From: Chloroflexota bacterium
GTDB taxonomy: Bacteria > Chloroflexota > FW602-bin22 > JACPRP01
DNA: 64,000 nt
Assembly: GCA_016210495.1 (NCBI GenBank)
Contig: JACQUC010000047.1
Span: forward strand, 1-64,000
Direction of reading: 5' to 3'
Notes under the pieces: model-generated
The model's database searches: none
What the model saw: only the letters and a program-made list of their open reading frames with translations
Told to the model about the DNA's origin: nothing
In this document: positions 1-20,972 of the stretch, piece by piece
How positions within the stretch are numbered: the stretch's first letter is position 1
Layout: each line of letters starts with the position of its first letter
Position numbers and translations under genes: made by a program

Positions 1-604
1 CGCCGTGGATAACCTCCCAGTCGTAGGCTCCTACCAGCTCCTCGTACTTTTGATGTCTCAGCGAGGTCACTAGCTCGTCTTTCTGTCCGACCAGCGCACG
101 CAGGTTGACTTTGTCGGCACGGGTCTCCAGTCCGGCAAAGGGATGATGCCTCGCCCGATCATAGGTCTCGGCCGCTCGCAGGAGCATCTTGGATGGCACG
201 CAGCCTACGTTGACGCAGGTGCCGCCTAACGTTCCGCGCTCGACCATCACGACGCGTGCCCCAAGCTCGCGGGCGCGGATGGCAGCGGCGAAGGCCGCGC
301 TACCCGAACCGACGATGGCCAGATCGTAGTCCCTGCCAGAAGCGTTCGAAGGTACAGCTCCGCCTGGCCTCTCCACGATCTCCACCGGTCCTGGTCGATA
401 TCCTGCCTCGCTGACCGCCCGTGCCAGAAGGGCCGTGTCGACGTTCGCCGGCGCCTTGAACAACGCCTCGCGGCGGTGCCAATCGACGTGAACGTCGCTG
501 GCTCCCGATTGCCGCAAGGCCCTGCCGACGGTCAATTCGCAGTGCTCGCAGGTCATCCCGTCGACCTGCATTCGCAACGCCAGATGGTTAGTCGGTTCGC
601 TCAT
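1..604 (-). CDS. merA: Mercuric reductase MerA, N-terminal part (runs off left edge)
   Basis: Reduces Hg(II) to Hg(0) with NADPH in the cytoplasm. The 201 codons present show an N-terminal heavy-metal-associated domain (about residues 5-65) with metal motif GMTCEHC, then a Rossmann FAD domain (DLAIVGSGSAAFAAAIRARE) and the redox-active disulfide motif GTCVNVGCVPSK. The start ATG is preceded by AGGAGGAGG at good spacing. The gene lies 102 bases downstream of an ArsR-type regulator on the same strand. Both visible cysteine motifs use ordinary Cys codons, unlike merB, merP and merT nearby. The C-terminal vicinal Cys pair lies outside the window. Family assignment is firm; the protein is partial only because of the window edge. 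Confidence 0.95.
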   Translation of the reverse strand, partial: MSEPTNHLALRMQVDGMTCEHCELTVGRALRQSGASDVHVDWHRREALFKAPANVDTALLARAVSEAGYRPGPVEIVERPGGAVPSNASGRDYDLAIVGSGSAAFAAAIRARELGARVVMVERGTLGGTCVNVGCVPSKMLLRAAETYDRARHHPFAGLETRADKVNLRALVGQKDELVTSLRHQKYEELVGAYDWEVIHG

Positions 605-5461: not shown

Positions 5462-5773
5462 CTAGGTTGGCGATAGCAACAGAGTGTTAACCACTGAGTA
5501 TCCCAGTTGGGTCACGACCAATGCAGTTGCGCCCCAGACGATCACCTTGTTCCACGGGTTGCGATTCGACTTCGTGTACAGCAGATAGTGCGCTGAGCCG
5601 AGCAGGAAAATCGTCACAACCAGGAAATAGGCGCGGTACTCAGAAAGCGAACCCGCCAGAGATACACCAACACCGCTAAGACCTAGCGATGCAAAAACCG
5701 GCATGCCCAGTCAGCAGATGGACGACAGAAAGGCTGTGCCGATTGAGCCCAGACTTGAAAACCTCTCCTTCAT
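5462..5773 (-). CDS. merT: MerT-like mercury transporter with in-frame TGA (putative selenocysteine 21)
   Basis: A 103-residue inner-membrane protein if TGA at 5711-5713 is read through. The N-terminal helix reads GTAFLSSIC-U-LGMPVFASLG, matching the MerT segment SACCLGPLVLIALG, with TGA at the second residue of the Cys pair that takes Hg(II) from MerP. The later SEYRAYFLVVTIFLLGSAHY matches LEPYRPIFI and the second helix, and a third hydrophobic segment follows. The frame stays open and homologous on both sides of the TGA, and a 9-bp hairpin with a GGUCU loop follows 18 bases downstream. Last gene of the merB-merP-merT operon, 45 bases after merP. A pseudogene or a start at the downstream ATG (5704) are the alternatives; the latter would lose the metal-binding pair. 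Confidence 0.82.
5670..5692 (-). promoter_or_regulatory. Predicted bacterial SECIS hairpin in merT
   Basis: In the minus-strand RNA, GCAUCGCUA pairs with UAGCGGUGU (nine pairs, three of them G-U at the outer part) around the loop GGUCU. The stem begins 18 bases after the UGA, so the loop G is at +28. The loop sequence equals that of the E. coli fdhF SECIS recognised by SelB. Confidence 0.75.
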
Positions 5774-5818
5774 TCCCCTTCCCAGCAATCTAAGGTTGTT
5801 CGTCGTCTAATCACGAAC

Positions 5819-6253
5819 CTACTCGATTTCCATCTTGGATATCCTGTCCCCTCCATCCTTGAGCGCCTGAGCGATAGCCTCCGGATTGGTCTTACTTGCA
5901 TCGTAGGTAACTGTGACCGTCTGATTTCTTAGGTCCACCTGGACCTTCTCCACGCCGTCAACACGCCGGGCGCTTTCGTTGACGCGCGCTACACAGCTTG
6001 GTCAGGTTATCGTGGGAACCATAAACCTCACGATCTTCGACCTCCCGCCGCTCTCTTCGGAGGCGGCGCCGCTCTGATTTCCTGACGCTTGATCAACGGT
6101 CTGACTTGCATCGACTTGCGCGGAGCTTACGCTAGTCTCGCGACCACGGTTGCTTGATGAACCACCATTGGAGCCTGCAAGCAGAATAACGAGCGCCGAT
6201 GCCAGCAGCAGCAACAACAGCATCGGTTTCCCCACAATTTCCCGTACCGACAA
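5819..6253 (-). CDS. merP: MerP-like mercury-binding protein with in-frame TGA (putative selenocysteine 84)
   Basis: A 144-residue product if TGA at 6002-6004 is decoded. An N-terminal hydrophobic anchor (about residues 10-26, PMLLLLLLASALVILLAG) is followed by a Ser/Gly-rich linker, then a heavy-metal-associated domain: KIVRFMVPTIT-U-PSCVARVNESA, VDGVEKVQVDLRNQTVTVTY, and a C-terminal helix. In MerP the motif is GMTCxxC; here TGA replaces the first Cys, giving UxxC. Start is TTG with GAGGAGGA eight bases upstream, 31 bases after merB. It probably captures Hg(II) outside the membrane and passes it to MerT. Without readthrough the product would lack the entire metal domain. Confidence 0.83.
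5953..5986 (-). promoter_or_regulatory. Candidate SECIS hairpin in merP (weaker)
   Basis: GUCAAC pairs with GUUGAC, extended by CGC/GCG across a bulged G; the six-pair stem starts 18 bases after the UGA. The 15-base apical part can form a small CGC/GCG inner helix with a loop containing G, but it lacks the GGUC loop seen in merT and merB. Position fits a bacterial SECIS; sequence support is moderate. Confidence 0.5.
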
Positions 6254-6284
6254 CGTTCGATCCTCCTCTCAACCTTCGCCGACC

Positions 6285-6914
6285 CTATCTTCTGTTCAGT
6301 TCACCCCACAACAAATGACCCATTGCAACAGCTTCCTCCAAGGTCGCCGAATGCCCTTCCTGCGCAGGGTTTTGCTGACGCCACGCCTGCAAGTGCTCGA
6401 CCGAGCAAAAGAAATTGATGTGCGGTCAGGTACAACCGACGATAGAGCGACCAACCTCTGCTTCAGCCATCCACAGACGAATCCCTTGCGGAGCTGCTTT
6501 AACAACTTCTCCACGCTGCAGCTCAATGGCTACCTTGTGGCCGCATCGAAAGCAGGAAGAGTTTATCGCAGCATCTACCTTGAGCGCCGCAGGTATGCCC
6601 ACGGCATCCTCGGCGCACCACGCATAGTAGCTGTTGCCCAGCATGCGGAGCCGATGGCTCGTGGGCACGAGCGTCAGGCCCCAGCTACCGACGACCACCC
6701 CTGCGTCATCGCGGACCAGGAGGCCCAGTTCGACAAGATTGTCTGTCGCGTCGGCCACGGCATCGGGAGCCAAGCCTGCGCGCTCCGAAAGCCACTGGAG
6801 AGACGCAGGCGAATTCGCAAGAATAGCGTCGAAGGCTGCCAACAGCACGGCCTTCTCGTCGGCGGTTATGGACTCCACCATCTTCTTGAGTTGTGCAGGG
6901 CTGGAATTAGTCAT
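6285..6914 (-). CDS. merB: Organomercurial lyase MerB with in-frame TGA at the catalytic cysteine (putative selenocysteine 163)
   Basis: Cleaves carbon-mercury bonds by protonolysis. With TGA at 6426-6428 read through the product is 209 residues, against 212 for E. coli MerB, and aligns end to end: GSWGLTLVPTSHRL, YYAWCAEDAVGIPA (Cys100, Asp103), then GCT-U-PHINFFCSVEHLQAW and a normal C-terminus ending LLWGELNRR. E. coli MerB uses Cys96, Asp99 and Cys159; the spacing Cys96-Cys159 is 63, and here Cys100 to the TGA residue is also 63. The TGA is thus exactly at the essential second cysteine. A hairpin with loop GGUC follows 18 bases after the TGA. First structural gene after the ArsR copy at 6950, 35 bases downstream. 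Confidence 0.87.
6394..6407 (-). promoter_or_regulatory. Predicted bacterial SECIS hairpin in merB
   Basis: UGCUC pairs perfectly with GAGCA around the loop GGUC in the minus-strand RNA. The stem begins 18 bases after the UGA, placing the loop G at +24, inside the usual window for bacterial SECIS elements. Loop sequence matches merT and E. coli fdhF. Confidence 0.7.
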
Positions 6915-6949
6915 TTCTCACCCCTGGTGCAAAATGAGAAACTAGGAAA

Positions 6950-7294
6950 CTAGCGAATAATGTTGCAGCAGATGATCCGCTGCGCATTCTCAAAGATCAT
7001 CTCTTTGGCGAGGCGCAGGATGTCCCTGACACGCTGATCGTCGACACGATAATAGACGTTGCGTCCGTTCTTGAACGACGAGACGTAGCCACACCAGCGG
7101 AGACAGGCCAGGTGCGTCGAGACACGACCTTGCGGGGAGCCAAGCAAAGCCACGAGCTCGCCGACGCTCCTGTCTCCTTCGAGGAGATATTCGATGATCT
7201 TCACCCGCGTGGGATCGCCCAAGCCGCGGAAGAACTTGCTCAATACTTCCGTCTGCAGTTCGACGTGCCGGGCAGGCATTTCCAAGGATTGCAC
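6950..7294 (-). CDS. ArsR/SmtB-family metal-responsive repressor (mer regulator, copy 2)
   Basis: A 114-residue winged-helix repressor, near-identical over most of its length to the copy at 707-1054 (shared FFRGLGDPTRVKIIEYLL, LACLRWCGYVSS, KNGRNVYYRVDD). The C-terminus has a vicinal pair, ICCNIIR, where copy 1 has VSCSILR, so their metal sites may differ. The start is GTG at 7294 with AGGAGGTGA six bases upstream; the upstream GTG at 7324 lacks a site. It heads the merB-merP-merT operon and is divergent from the merR pair. Hg(II) derepression is inferred. Confidence 0.87.
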   Translation of the reverse strand: MQSLEMPARHVELQTEVLSKFFRGLGDPTRVKIIEYLLEGDRSVGELVALLGSPQGRVSTHLACLRWCGYVSSFKNGRNVYYRVDDQRVRDILRLAKEMIFENAQRIICCNIIR

Positions 7295-7324
7295 CCTCTC
7301 ACCTCCTGAGAAGCTACTCTTCAC

Positions 7325-7372
7325 ATATATCGGGATATCCGTATGTTACACCATAAGAAGTAACGATGTCAA
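7325..7372 (-). promoter_or_regulatory. Promoter and putative ArsR operator of the merBPT operon
   Basis: TTGACA (7367-7372) and TAACAT (7343-7348) on the minus strand with 18 bases between them, followed by ATACGGATATCCCGATATAT. The stretch TGTAACATACGGATATC nearly matches the same region of the merA-operon promoter (TGTAATATACGGATATA), and GGATATCC is itself palindromic. Confidence 0.75.
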
Positions 7373-7479: not shown

Positions 7480-7503
7480 ATGATCTGAATGGAGGCAGGG
7501 GCA

Positions 7504-7914
7504 ATGAGAGATTTCACGATAGGCCAGTTGGCCAAAATGGCACGGGTGAACGTGGAAACGGTTCGTTATTACGAGCGAAGGGGACTCATACCCGAGCCGC
7601 CGCGCAGCGAGTCGGGATACCGGCGGTACTCGCAGAACGTCGCCACCACAATCGAGTTCATTAAGCGGGCTAAGGAGCTTGGTTTCTCGCTCAGGGAGAT
7701 CTTGGAACTTCTCTCTTTGCAGACAGGCCCTGACGTCGACTGCGGCGACATCAAGAAACGGGCACAGGCGAAGCTCGCCGACGTCGAAGCGAGGATTCGA
7801 GATCTGGAGAGGATCAGGGAAGTCTTATCGGAACTCGTGTTGACGTGCGCCGGACTTGGCCCGACCAGCGAATGTCCGATATTGCGGGCACTGGGCACAG
7901 CCGAGGAAGCGTGA
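7504..7914 (+). CDS. merR: MerR-family Hg(II)-responsive regulator
   Basis: A 136-residue MerR protein: HTH with FTIGQLAKMARVNVETVRYYERRGLI, GYRRYSQ, long dimerisation helix, and the mercury-type cysteines DVDCGDIKKRA, LVLTCAGLG and SECPIL, the spacing seen in true MerR (Cys82, Cys117, Cys126 in Tn501). The start chosen is ATG at 7504 because GGAGG lies eight bases upstream. Only 99 bases separate it from the thioredoxin-like gene, suggesting one transcript. The locus therefore carries both ArsR-type and MerR-type mercury regulators. Confidence 0.92.
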   Translation: MRDFTIGQLAKMARVNVETVRYYERRGLIPEPPRSESGYRRYSQNVATTIEFIKRAKELGFSLREILELLSLQTGPDVDCGDIKKRAQAKLADVEARIRDLERIREVLSELVLTCAGLGPTSECPILRALGTAEEA

Positions 7915-8416: not shown

Positions 8417-8500
8417 TTACTTCTTGTCTGCGATGCAGCCGCAGCCGCAGTTCTTGGCGTCCTTCTTGGTATTCGCCCCCTTCTTGTCCTTGTCGGCCAT
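8417..8500 (-). CDS. 27-residue Lys-rich peptide with CxCxC motif (metallothionein-like)
   Basis: A short gene preceded by AAAGGAGGTTGCCAA and ATG, encoding a 27-residue Lys/Asp-rich peptide containing NCGCGCIADKK. Three cysteines alternate with glycines, a geometry suited to binding soft metals. It lies 66 bases downstream of a MerR-type regulator on the same strand and behind that regulator's metal-type promoter, so it is probably co-induced. I do not recognise a named family. A cytoplasmic metal-buffering or chaperone peptide is inferred. The strong ribosome-binding site is the main evidence that it is translated. Confidence 0.65.
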   Translation of the reverse strand: MADKDKKGANTKKDAKNCGCGCIADKK

Positions 8501-9261: not shown

Positions 9262-11099
9262 GTGGAGACGTCGCAACTGAACACTTCGCCGAAAACCATT
9301 GAGGTTCCTATTCGCGGGATGGACTGCACGGAATGCACGCAACACGTCAGGCACGCTATCTCGGCGCTCCCTGGCGTCGAGTCGGTCGAGGTCTTTCTGT
9401 CTTCGGAGAAAGCTGTCGTCCGGCTCGACCCCGCGCTTGTGGACCTGCCGGCCATTCACAAAGTGGTAAAAGGAGCGGGCTATTCGGTAGCCGCCACTGC
9501 CGCCGAGCCTCAGTCTGCTCCATCGCCGCTTGGCGATTTCACCAACCGCATTCTCGCCCTATTCGGCATAGTCTTTGGCGCGGTGCTGTTCGTAGTCGTC
9601 GTCGGTGAGTGGCTGGGACTATTCGAAGCCTTCACCGAACGTGTGCCCTGGCCCATCGGCCTGGCTATCGTTCTTGTCGGCGGCTACCCCGTATTCCGCA
9701 ACGTCGTCCGCGCCGCGCTCAAGGTGCAGATCATCTCCCACACGTTGATGACGCTGGGAGTCCTGGCCGCCATCGTGGTCGGTGAATGGGCCACGGCAGC
9801 CGTCATCGTGTTCTTTATGCGTATCGGCGATTACGCCGAGAACTTCACCACTGAACGTGCCCGCCGCGCGGTGAAGAACCTTACGGCGATGGCCCCCCAG
9901 ACCGCACGAGTGGAACGTGACGGCGTGGAGCAGGAAGTGCCCGTTGCCGAAGTGCAGGTTGGAGAAACGGTCGTCGTGCGGCCGGGCGAGAACATCCCGG
10001 TGGACGGCGAAGTCGTGGGTGGTCACGCGACAGTGGATCAGGCGGCCATCACCGGCGAGTCGATGCCTGTCGAGGTCGGGCCGGGCGCCAGGGTCTTCGC
10101 CGCCACTCTGGCGCGCCTGGGCGGTCTTCGCGTCCGCACCACTCACGTGGGAGCGGATACCACCTTCGGGCGCGTCGTCAAGATGGTGGAGGAAGCCGAA
10201 GCGCACCGGGCGGATGTGCAGCGCATCGCCGACAGGTTTTCGGCCTATTTCCTGCCCTTCGTGGCGGGCATCACGGCACTCACCTTTCTGATTCGCCGCG
10301 GAGCGTTACTCGGAACATCCGTTGGCGGAGGCCGTGCGCGATGCGGCGAGGAGGCGTGGCCTACCCGTATTCGAGCAAGAGCAGTTTGAAGCTATCCCGG
10401 GCCACGGCGTGCGCGCCCGCATCAATGGGCGGCATAGTTGCTGTCGGCAACCGCCGATTGATTCTCCAGGCTTCATCCCTCCCCATCGTTTCCGAACTCG
10501 AATCACAGGGGAAAACCCTGCTATTTGTGGCCAGGGATGGTGAGGTGACCGGCGTGCTTGCCGCTGCCGACACCCTACGACCGGAGGTCCCAGCATCTCT
10601 CGACGCTGTGCGAGCCCTCGGCCTCAGGGACGTCGAGCTGCTAACCGGCGACAACGAGCGGACGGCCGCCGCTCTTGCCGAGCGCATTGGCGTACGCTAC
10701 CGCGCCAATCTCTTACCGGAGGACAAGATCGCCATCGTGAAAGAATACCAGGCCCAGGGCCGTACCGTCGTGATGGTGGGCGATGGCGTGAATGACGCGC
10801 CAGCGCTGGCCCAGGCCGAGGTCGGCATCGCGATGGGTGCCGCTGGAACCGACGTGGCCATCGAAGCCGCTCATCTGGCATTGATGCGCGAAGACTGGAT
10901 GCTTGTGCCCGAAGTGTTACGCATTGCCCGTCGCACGATGCGAGTGGTGAAGATGAACATCGCTTTCACTGCCGTGTACAACCTTGTCGGGCTCTCGCTG
11001 GCTGCCCTGGGCTTCCTGCCGCCCATTCTTGCTGCTGCGGCCCAGTCCCTGCCTGACCTCGGCATTCTGGCCAACTCATCTCGTCTGCTGCGCTCTTGA
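9262..11099 (+). pseudogene. Soft-metal P1B-type ATPase with internal deletion and frameshifts
   Basis: Remnant of a Zn/Cd/Pb-type ATPase. The N-terminal part encodes an HMA domain (RGMDCTECTQHVRHAI), transmembrane helices and the actuator motif ITGESMPVEVGPG up to FVAGITALTFLI near 10293. The next homologous segment, in another frame, is RYSEHPLAEAVRDAARRRG, so the CPx membrane motif and the DKTGT phosphorylation site (roughly 110 residues) are missing. A further frame change near 10430 leads to GGIVAVGNRRLI, TGDNERTAAALAE, MVGDGVNDAPALAQAEVGIA and a normal C-terminus. Start is GTG at 9262. It cannot be an active pump as it stands. Flanked by matching CmtR-type operators. Confidence 0.87.
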
Positions 11100-20065: not shown

Positions 20066-20215
20066 ATCCACAACTGAATAGTGTTGGCAGAGATGCTCCA
20101 GCCGGGATTGGGGCTCGCGAGGGGAAATCCGGTGTGATTCCGGTGCTGTCCCGCAACTGTGATTCGGTCAACGCCGATAAGCCAGGCCTACCGCCTCTGC
20201 CGCGTGCTGACGGCC
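20066..20215 (+). ncRNA. Cobalamin (B12) riboswitch
   Basis: Conserved aptamer blocks are present in order: GGGGAAATCCGGTGTGATTC, CCGGTGCTGTCCCGCAACTG (the B12 box) and AAGCCAGGCCTACC at the 3' side. It precedes an intrinsic terminator and the cobalt-transporter genes cbtB-cbtA, so cobalamin should switch cobalt uptake off by premature termination. The 5' boundary is approximate. Confidence 0.93.
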
Positions 20216-20902: not shown

Positions 20903-20972
20903 TCACCACTACTGAATTTGTCTAGTGTCTACACACGGGTGAGATGAGAGCCACGAGTTGAGAGGAGAGGTG

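Follow-up and report, generated by a model that had tools for sequence, protein, structure and literature searches.

A predicted merB-merP-merT-type operon carries a single in-frame TGA in each of its three genes, and these codons are most probably decoded as selenocysteine (Sec). Within the window, by which we mean the whole stretch of 64,000 nucleotides analysed, the three frames are open except for exactly one TGA each, and in all three genes the UGA aligns with a cysteine of the homologues. The relevant features are as follows:

2..604, minus strand: N-terminal part of a mercuric reductase (MerA), extending past the window edge
5462..5773, minus strand: MerT-like gene, from a likely ATG at 5773, with the TGA in a C-U pair
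5670..5692, minus strand: 9-bp hairpin with a GGTCT loop in merT, likely SECIS
5711..5713, minus strand: in-frame TGA of merT, codon 26 of the TTG frame and codon 21 from the likely ATG
5819..6253, minus strand: MerP-like gene with a TTG start
6002..6004, minus strand: in-frame TGA of merP (codon 84), first position of CxxC
6285..6914, minus strand: MerB-like gene, 209 aa
6394..6407, minus strand: merB hairpin TGCTC(GGTC)GAGCA, likely SECIS apex
6426..6428, minus strand: in-frame TGA of merB (codon 163), at the C159 site
6950..7324, minus strand: ArsR/SmtB-type regulator
7489..7914, plus strand: MerR-like regulator, divergent

The preliminary description had placed one TGA at the mercury-ligating cysteine position of each of three consecutive genes, and this is what we find: the affected residues are the C159-type cysteine of MerB, the leading Cys of CxxC in MerP, and the latter Cys of the CC pair in MerT. 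As judged from sequence, decoding as Sec is very likely for the merB and merT codons and likely for that of merP. Codon-position GC is alike before and after the TGA in merB and merP, while the 20 codons that precede it in merT are too few for judging.

Gene products, neighbourhood and predicted substrate

The MerB-like protein, in which the TGA would place Sec at residue 163, falls within the MerB superfamily (PF03243) by both gathering score and fold, and the Pfam domain spans the TGA (residues 80-202, 5.6e-29). In an alignment with chain 3f2g, the C160S form of MerB, the TGA residue lies on the Cys just before the mutated position 160, namely C159; C100 and D103 are also retained. The protein differs from canonical MerB of plasmid R831b and from MerB2 5c17 by the Sec codon at this site, and it scores 100.8 against the equivalog cut-off of 193 (NF009710) and 85.6 against 200 (NF033555). 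The MerP-like protein consists of a membrane anchor or signal, a linker, and an HMA domain that spans the TGA (residues 77-134, 5.3e-16; PF00403, 59.2 vs 24.8), and scores 59.5 against 92.55 for MerP TIGR02052. For the third protein the scores are 26.7 bits against 32.9 (PF02411) and 60 against 130 (NF033560), so that it is referred to as MerT-like only.

On the minus strand the order is ArsR-type regulator, MerB-like, MerP-like, MerT-like, with gaps of 35, 31, and 45 bases and, by eye, purine-rich, ribosome-binding-site-like stretches upstream of the starts. The regulator (NF033788, 80.4 bits vs a cut-off of 55) is likely to share a transcript with merB, 35 bases downstream, and all four genes would form a single transcript. 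With regard to a mer operon in the sense of a MerR-type regulator and MerA near transport genes, the divergent MerR-like gene scores 144.3 bits against 150.85 (TIGR02051), and the partial MerA (TIGR02053, 141.6 bits) lies at the left edge with other genes intervening; its visible redox motif, GGTCVNVGC, has ordinary Cys codons. Further observations from the window include a tiny Cys-rich frame on the minus strand at 8417-8500, MADKDKKGANTKKDAKNCGCGCIADKK, which is possibly metal-binding, and a cobalamin riboswitch (20077-20209, 46.4 bits) upstream of a membrane-protein ORF at 20958 that resembles CbtA. A heavy-metal P-type ATPase (9262-11099) is split over three frames, lacks the CPC and DKTG motifs in every frame, and has apparently suffered a deletion and frame shifts.

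These scores leave room for a selenoprotein operon directed at a metal or organometal other than mercury: MerT and MerP fall under mercury-specific cut-offs, HMA domains also occur in copper chaperones, and the upstream regulator is of the ArsR type. We regard this as rather unlikely, since the MerB-family fold is kept together with C100, D103, and the C159 site, and the same stretch holds the MerR-like regulator, just under its cut-off, and the MerA N-terminus. Mercury is therefore retained as the putative substrate, by homology.

Hairpins behind the TGA codons

The likely SECIS hairpins of merB and merT have a GGUC loop in common. The fdhF gene of E. coli has a GGUCU loop. When the bacterial SECIS model was applied in the form given in PMC13188914, with an energy limit of -7.5, merT passed (-13.6), merB reached -7.1 and the viral contig L022, described below, -6.1, while merP gave no candidate; the model discriminates poorly, with 166 of 600 random TGAs passing. 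Folding of the 44 nt from the UGA gave z-scores against shuffles of -3.04 for merT, -0.17 for merB, +1.27 for merP, and -0.40 for L022, and the GGTC hairpin of merB is absent from the minimum-energy fold of these 44 nt. In a loose free-energy scan, by which merB and merP could not be told apart from random TGAs, 43%, 40%, and 12% of 300 random TGAs were as good as merB, merP, and merT, respectively. The stem had been described as beginning 18 bases after the UGA in all three genes; this applies to merB and merT, whereas the merP stem, at about 17-18, encloses a long loop and provides no SECIS candidate.

A GGTC-loop hairpin of at least 5 bp, a motif chosen after it had been seen and whose rates accordingly describe rather than test, stands behind 7 of the 1702 TGAs in the window, two of which are those of merB and merT, and behind 89 of 28,859 in random sequence; with the same proviso, it occurs behind one of the 174 TGAs that end ORFs of at least 60 aa, this being merB. 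A hairpin of 5-8 bp follows the TGA in all 14 of the other TGA-MerB loci, with the loop (GGTC in 12, AGTT in two) starting 18-23 nt downstream; that of L022 reads TGCTC(AGTT)GAGCA. Among these loci, a distant MerB-like subfamily combines a TGA at the C159 site with a strongly conserved hairpin of the TTCC(GGTC)GGAA type in 13 genomes, 12 of them from one phylum. This subfamily is mostly NC.WDA (L008, L009, L012-L015, L017, L018, L027, L028, L038-L040). In the distant MerB-like genes, covariation of the hairpin is no more than suggestive: double changes occur in two of seven pairs (six distinct sequences from 7 loci), a level equalled by 73 of 500 shuffles.

It could be argued from these results that Sec is real in MerB and MerT and that the merP TGA is a true truncation or an error. 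Indeed, merP is alone in having neither a SECIS candidate nor conserved database relatives, a search for the latter having returned the window's own copy only and hence no independent conservation evidence for its TGA. However, this TGA coincides with the first Cys of CxxC and the HMA domain continues intact and in frame behind it, a Sec MerP is listed as a predicted selenoprotein from marine metagenomes (PMC2398784), and some bacterial SECIS elements deviate from the model, as stated in PMC13188914. A truncated merP consequently appears distinctly unlikely, and we retain Sec in all three proteins.

Relatives and selenocysteine machinery

A protein search with MerB gave 33 proteins including the window's own, and 28 of the other 32 were aligned. 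Twenty of these 32 relatives (42-83% identical) have GRS(I/V)VGCT or a closely similar sequence as their last residues and stop exactly one codon short of the site, although such cut-off gene calls do not by themselves identify the stop as TGA. Seven read through the site, six with Cys and one (P0011, 50% identical) with Arg, and five end elsewhere: P0035 and P0036 at or close to this position but with different residues, and P0010, P0015, and P0027 earlier. P0015 is from Dehalococcoidales and P0018 from Chloroflexota; P0024, with 355 residues, has an HMA domain and other parts fused to a MerB likewise cut off at the C159 site. The MerT search returned, besides the window's own, two proteins (86% and 64% identical), whose gene calls each begin just after the TGA site. 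Their contigs (8,533 and 38,278 bases) match in size those of the cut-off MerB proteins P0007 and P0018, and the genes of the second pair bear the tags EPO21_15005 and EPO21_15040. As to the proposal to look for neighbouring merB, merP, and merT that all carry TGA, equal contig size pairs a cut-off MerB with a cut-off MerT in two further cases, with merP represented by the window copy only.

Searches of genomes with MerB matched 5 of 197, 13 of 199, and, with P0018 on a set overlapping the second, 21 of 396. The DNA has TGA at the MerB site in 13 genomes (G124, G183, G252, G270, G316, G318, G382, G388, G668, G723, G738, G753, G770), whose proteins are distant from the window MerB, and Cys in G001, G002 (two genes), G158, and G271; these counts leave out the loci of G198, G214, G223, G228, G364, G469, G612, G764, and G769. 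Among viral contigs there was no MerT match and one MerB match, L022 (IMGVR_UViG_3300035559_000012), with a gene product 38% identical to that of the window and TGA at the same codon. A comparison of the two merB genes is uninformative, with dN 0.70 and dS saturated upstream of the TGA and dN 0.53 and dS 1.69 downstream of it. At L022:3285-4422 the Sec-MerB gene adjoins another gene with a TGA, which is of the CopZ N-terminal/BFD selenoprotein type (NF045877, 128.2 vs 190 bits; NPTGRUCGP), and the two sit in a phage-type structural module of portal-, protease-, and capsid-like genes, named by eye. L022 thus carries a phage-borne predicted selenoprotein pair; a literature search on phage selenoproteins returned only animal viruses and nutrition topics. 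The phage search gave no MerB match, and a pattern match on L006 was rejected because it lay out of frame within a phage gene and was due to chance. Among plasmids, 560 records match MerB, none of the 15 matches listed being annotated as recoded, and one record matches MerT.

With regard to the suggested co-occurrence with Sec genes, SelB is above the cut-off in all 13 other TGA-MerB genomes, and tRNA-Sec was found at 64.8 bits or more in seven of the eight genomes tested, the eighth, G382, scoring 47.4 against 47. SelB is also present in three Cys-form genomes (G002, G158, G271) and absent from the fourth, G001. By itself SelB co-occurrence is weak evidence, because SelB is found in 29 of 40 genomes of the G183 phylum with no MerB match. 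The 64 kb window contains no sel genes, 0 tRNAs, and no tRNA-Sec, and Sec insertion in its host is presumed.

Were the TGAs ordinary nonsense codons in mer genes that are decaying or mis-sequenced, the broken metal-transport ATPase 2-4 kb away would be a precedent for decay nearby, and the missing SECIS candidate of merP would be accounted for. This is very unlikely: there is exactly one stop per gene, and it always falls on the position of a ligand Cys; 20 other MerB proteins are cut off identically, and 14 other loci share the TGA. The earlier contention that chance mutation or sequencing error is implausible consequently stands for merB and merT, error or decay being disfavoured because TGA is conserved in far-apart MerB relatives and calls are cut off in two further MerT proteins; for merP there is the window copy only. 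Genome-wide reassignment of TGA to a sense codon was rejected and has a negligible probability, as TGA is a normal stop elsewhere in the window, as had been claimed, and terminates 29 of 58 mechanical ORFs of at least 100 aa.

The Sec reading of the three TGAs is thus supported by the TGA kept in far-apart MerB relatives and by the agreeing cut-off calls of MerT. Counting against it are the lack of sel genes and tRNAs in the 64 kb, the merP evidence, the marginal merB hairpin, the poor discrimination of the SECIS model, the choice of the GGTC motif after the fact, the commonness of SelB, the Arg of P0011, and the scores of MerT and MerP below their cut-offs.

Previously predicted selenoproteins and a possible selenium route for mercury

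Sec in MerP- and MerT-like families, mentioned in the preliminary description, is in print. Sec MerT appears as 'putative mercuric transport protein' (PF02411) with the motif C/SxxU (PMC9312934, PMC13188914), which the SICU of the window MerT fits, and Sec MerP in PMC2398784; the entries concern the same two kinds of protein, but list them singly and with no operon including a Sec MerB. MerB2 stands in a table of predicted selenoproteins (PMC7435645), in an entry that gives neither site nor context, and SaoL (NF040728), a MerB-like protein of the SAO operon, is likewise a predicted selenoprotein (PMC13188914). The operon of SaoL has six selenoprotein genes, whereas the window MerB, at 54.4, stays below the SaoL cut-off of 140 and has MerP- and MerT-like proteins instead of Sao proteins as neighbours. 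An operon including MerB had seemed undescribed; as Sec MerT, MerP, MerB2, and SaoL have already been predicted one by one, the new point is the three-gene Sec combination. No such operon was found in a literature search conducted mostly at title level, so that other papers could describe one, and the mercury terms looked for were absent from PMC12013277 and PMC5029168. Finally, the MerT/CopZ fusion-like heavy metal transport selenoprotein (NF045683) unites MerT-like and HMA parts in one protein, while in the window these are two adjacent, separate genes, whose 28.3 and 38.7 bits compare with a cut-off of 375.

The affinity of mercury for selenium exceeds that for sulfur, yet accounts of the mer pathway usually involve cysteine alone. 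Given the established roles of MerP, MerT, and MerB, selenolates would here act at capture, import, and cleavage. The selenolate of U84 in the MerP-like protein, beside C87, would bind mercury, the C-U pair of the MerT-like protein would serve its passage across the membrane, and U163 of the MerB-like protein, in a putative catalytic role, would cleave the carbon-mercury bond with C100 and D103; Hg(II) would then be handed to the MerA that starts at the left edge of the window. The higher affinity of selenium for mercury may aid both the binding and the cleavage of organomercurials. Selones break Hg-C bonds faster than their sulfur analogues, which makes such a mechanism chemically plausible (PMC11639659). 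Taking these results together, we lean slightly towards a selenium relay for mercury, in which a lineage linked to Chloroflexota has Sec fixed in MerB and MerT, and in which Sec at the C159 site is widespread, old, and also phage-borne in a selenoprotein cassette.

On this reading, annotation misses such enzymes: the gene calls of the 20 cut-off MerB relatives are fragments that lack the catalytic residue. If Sec at the catalytic site of MerB is conserved, selenium supply would become a factor in the natural breakdown of methylmercury.
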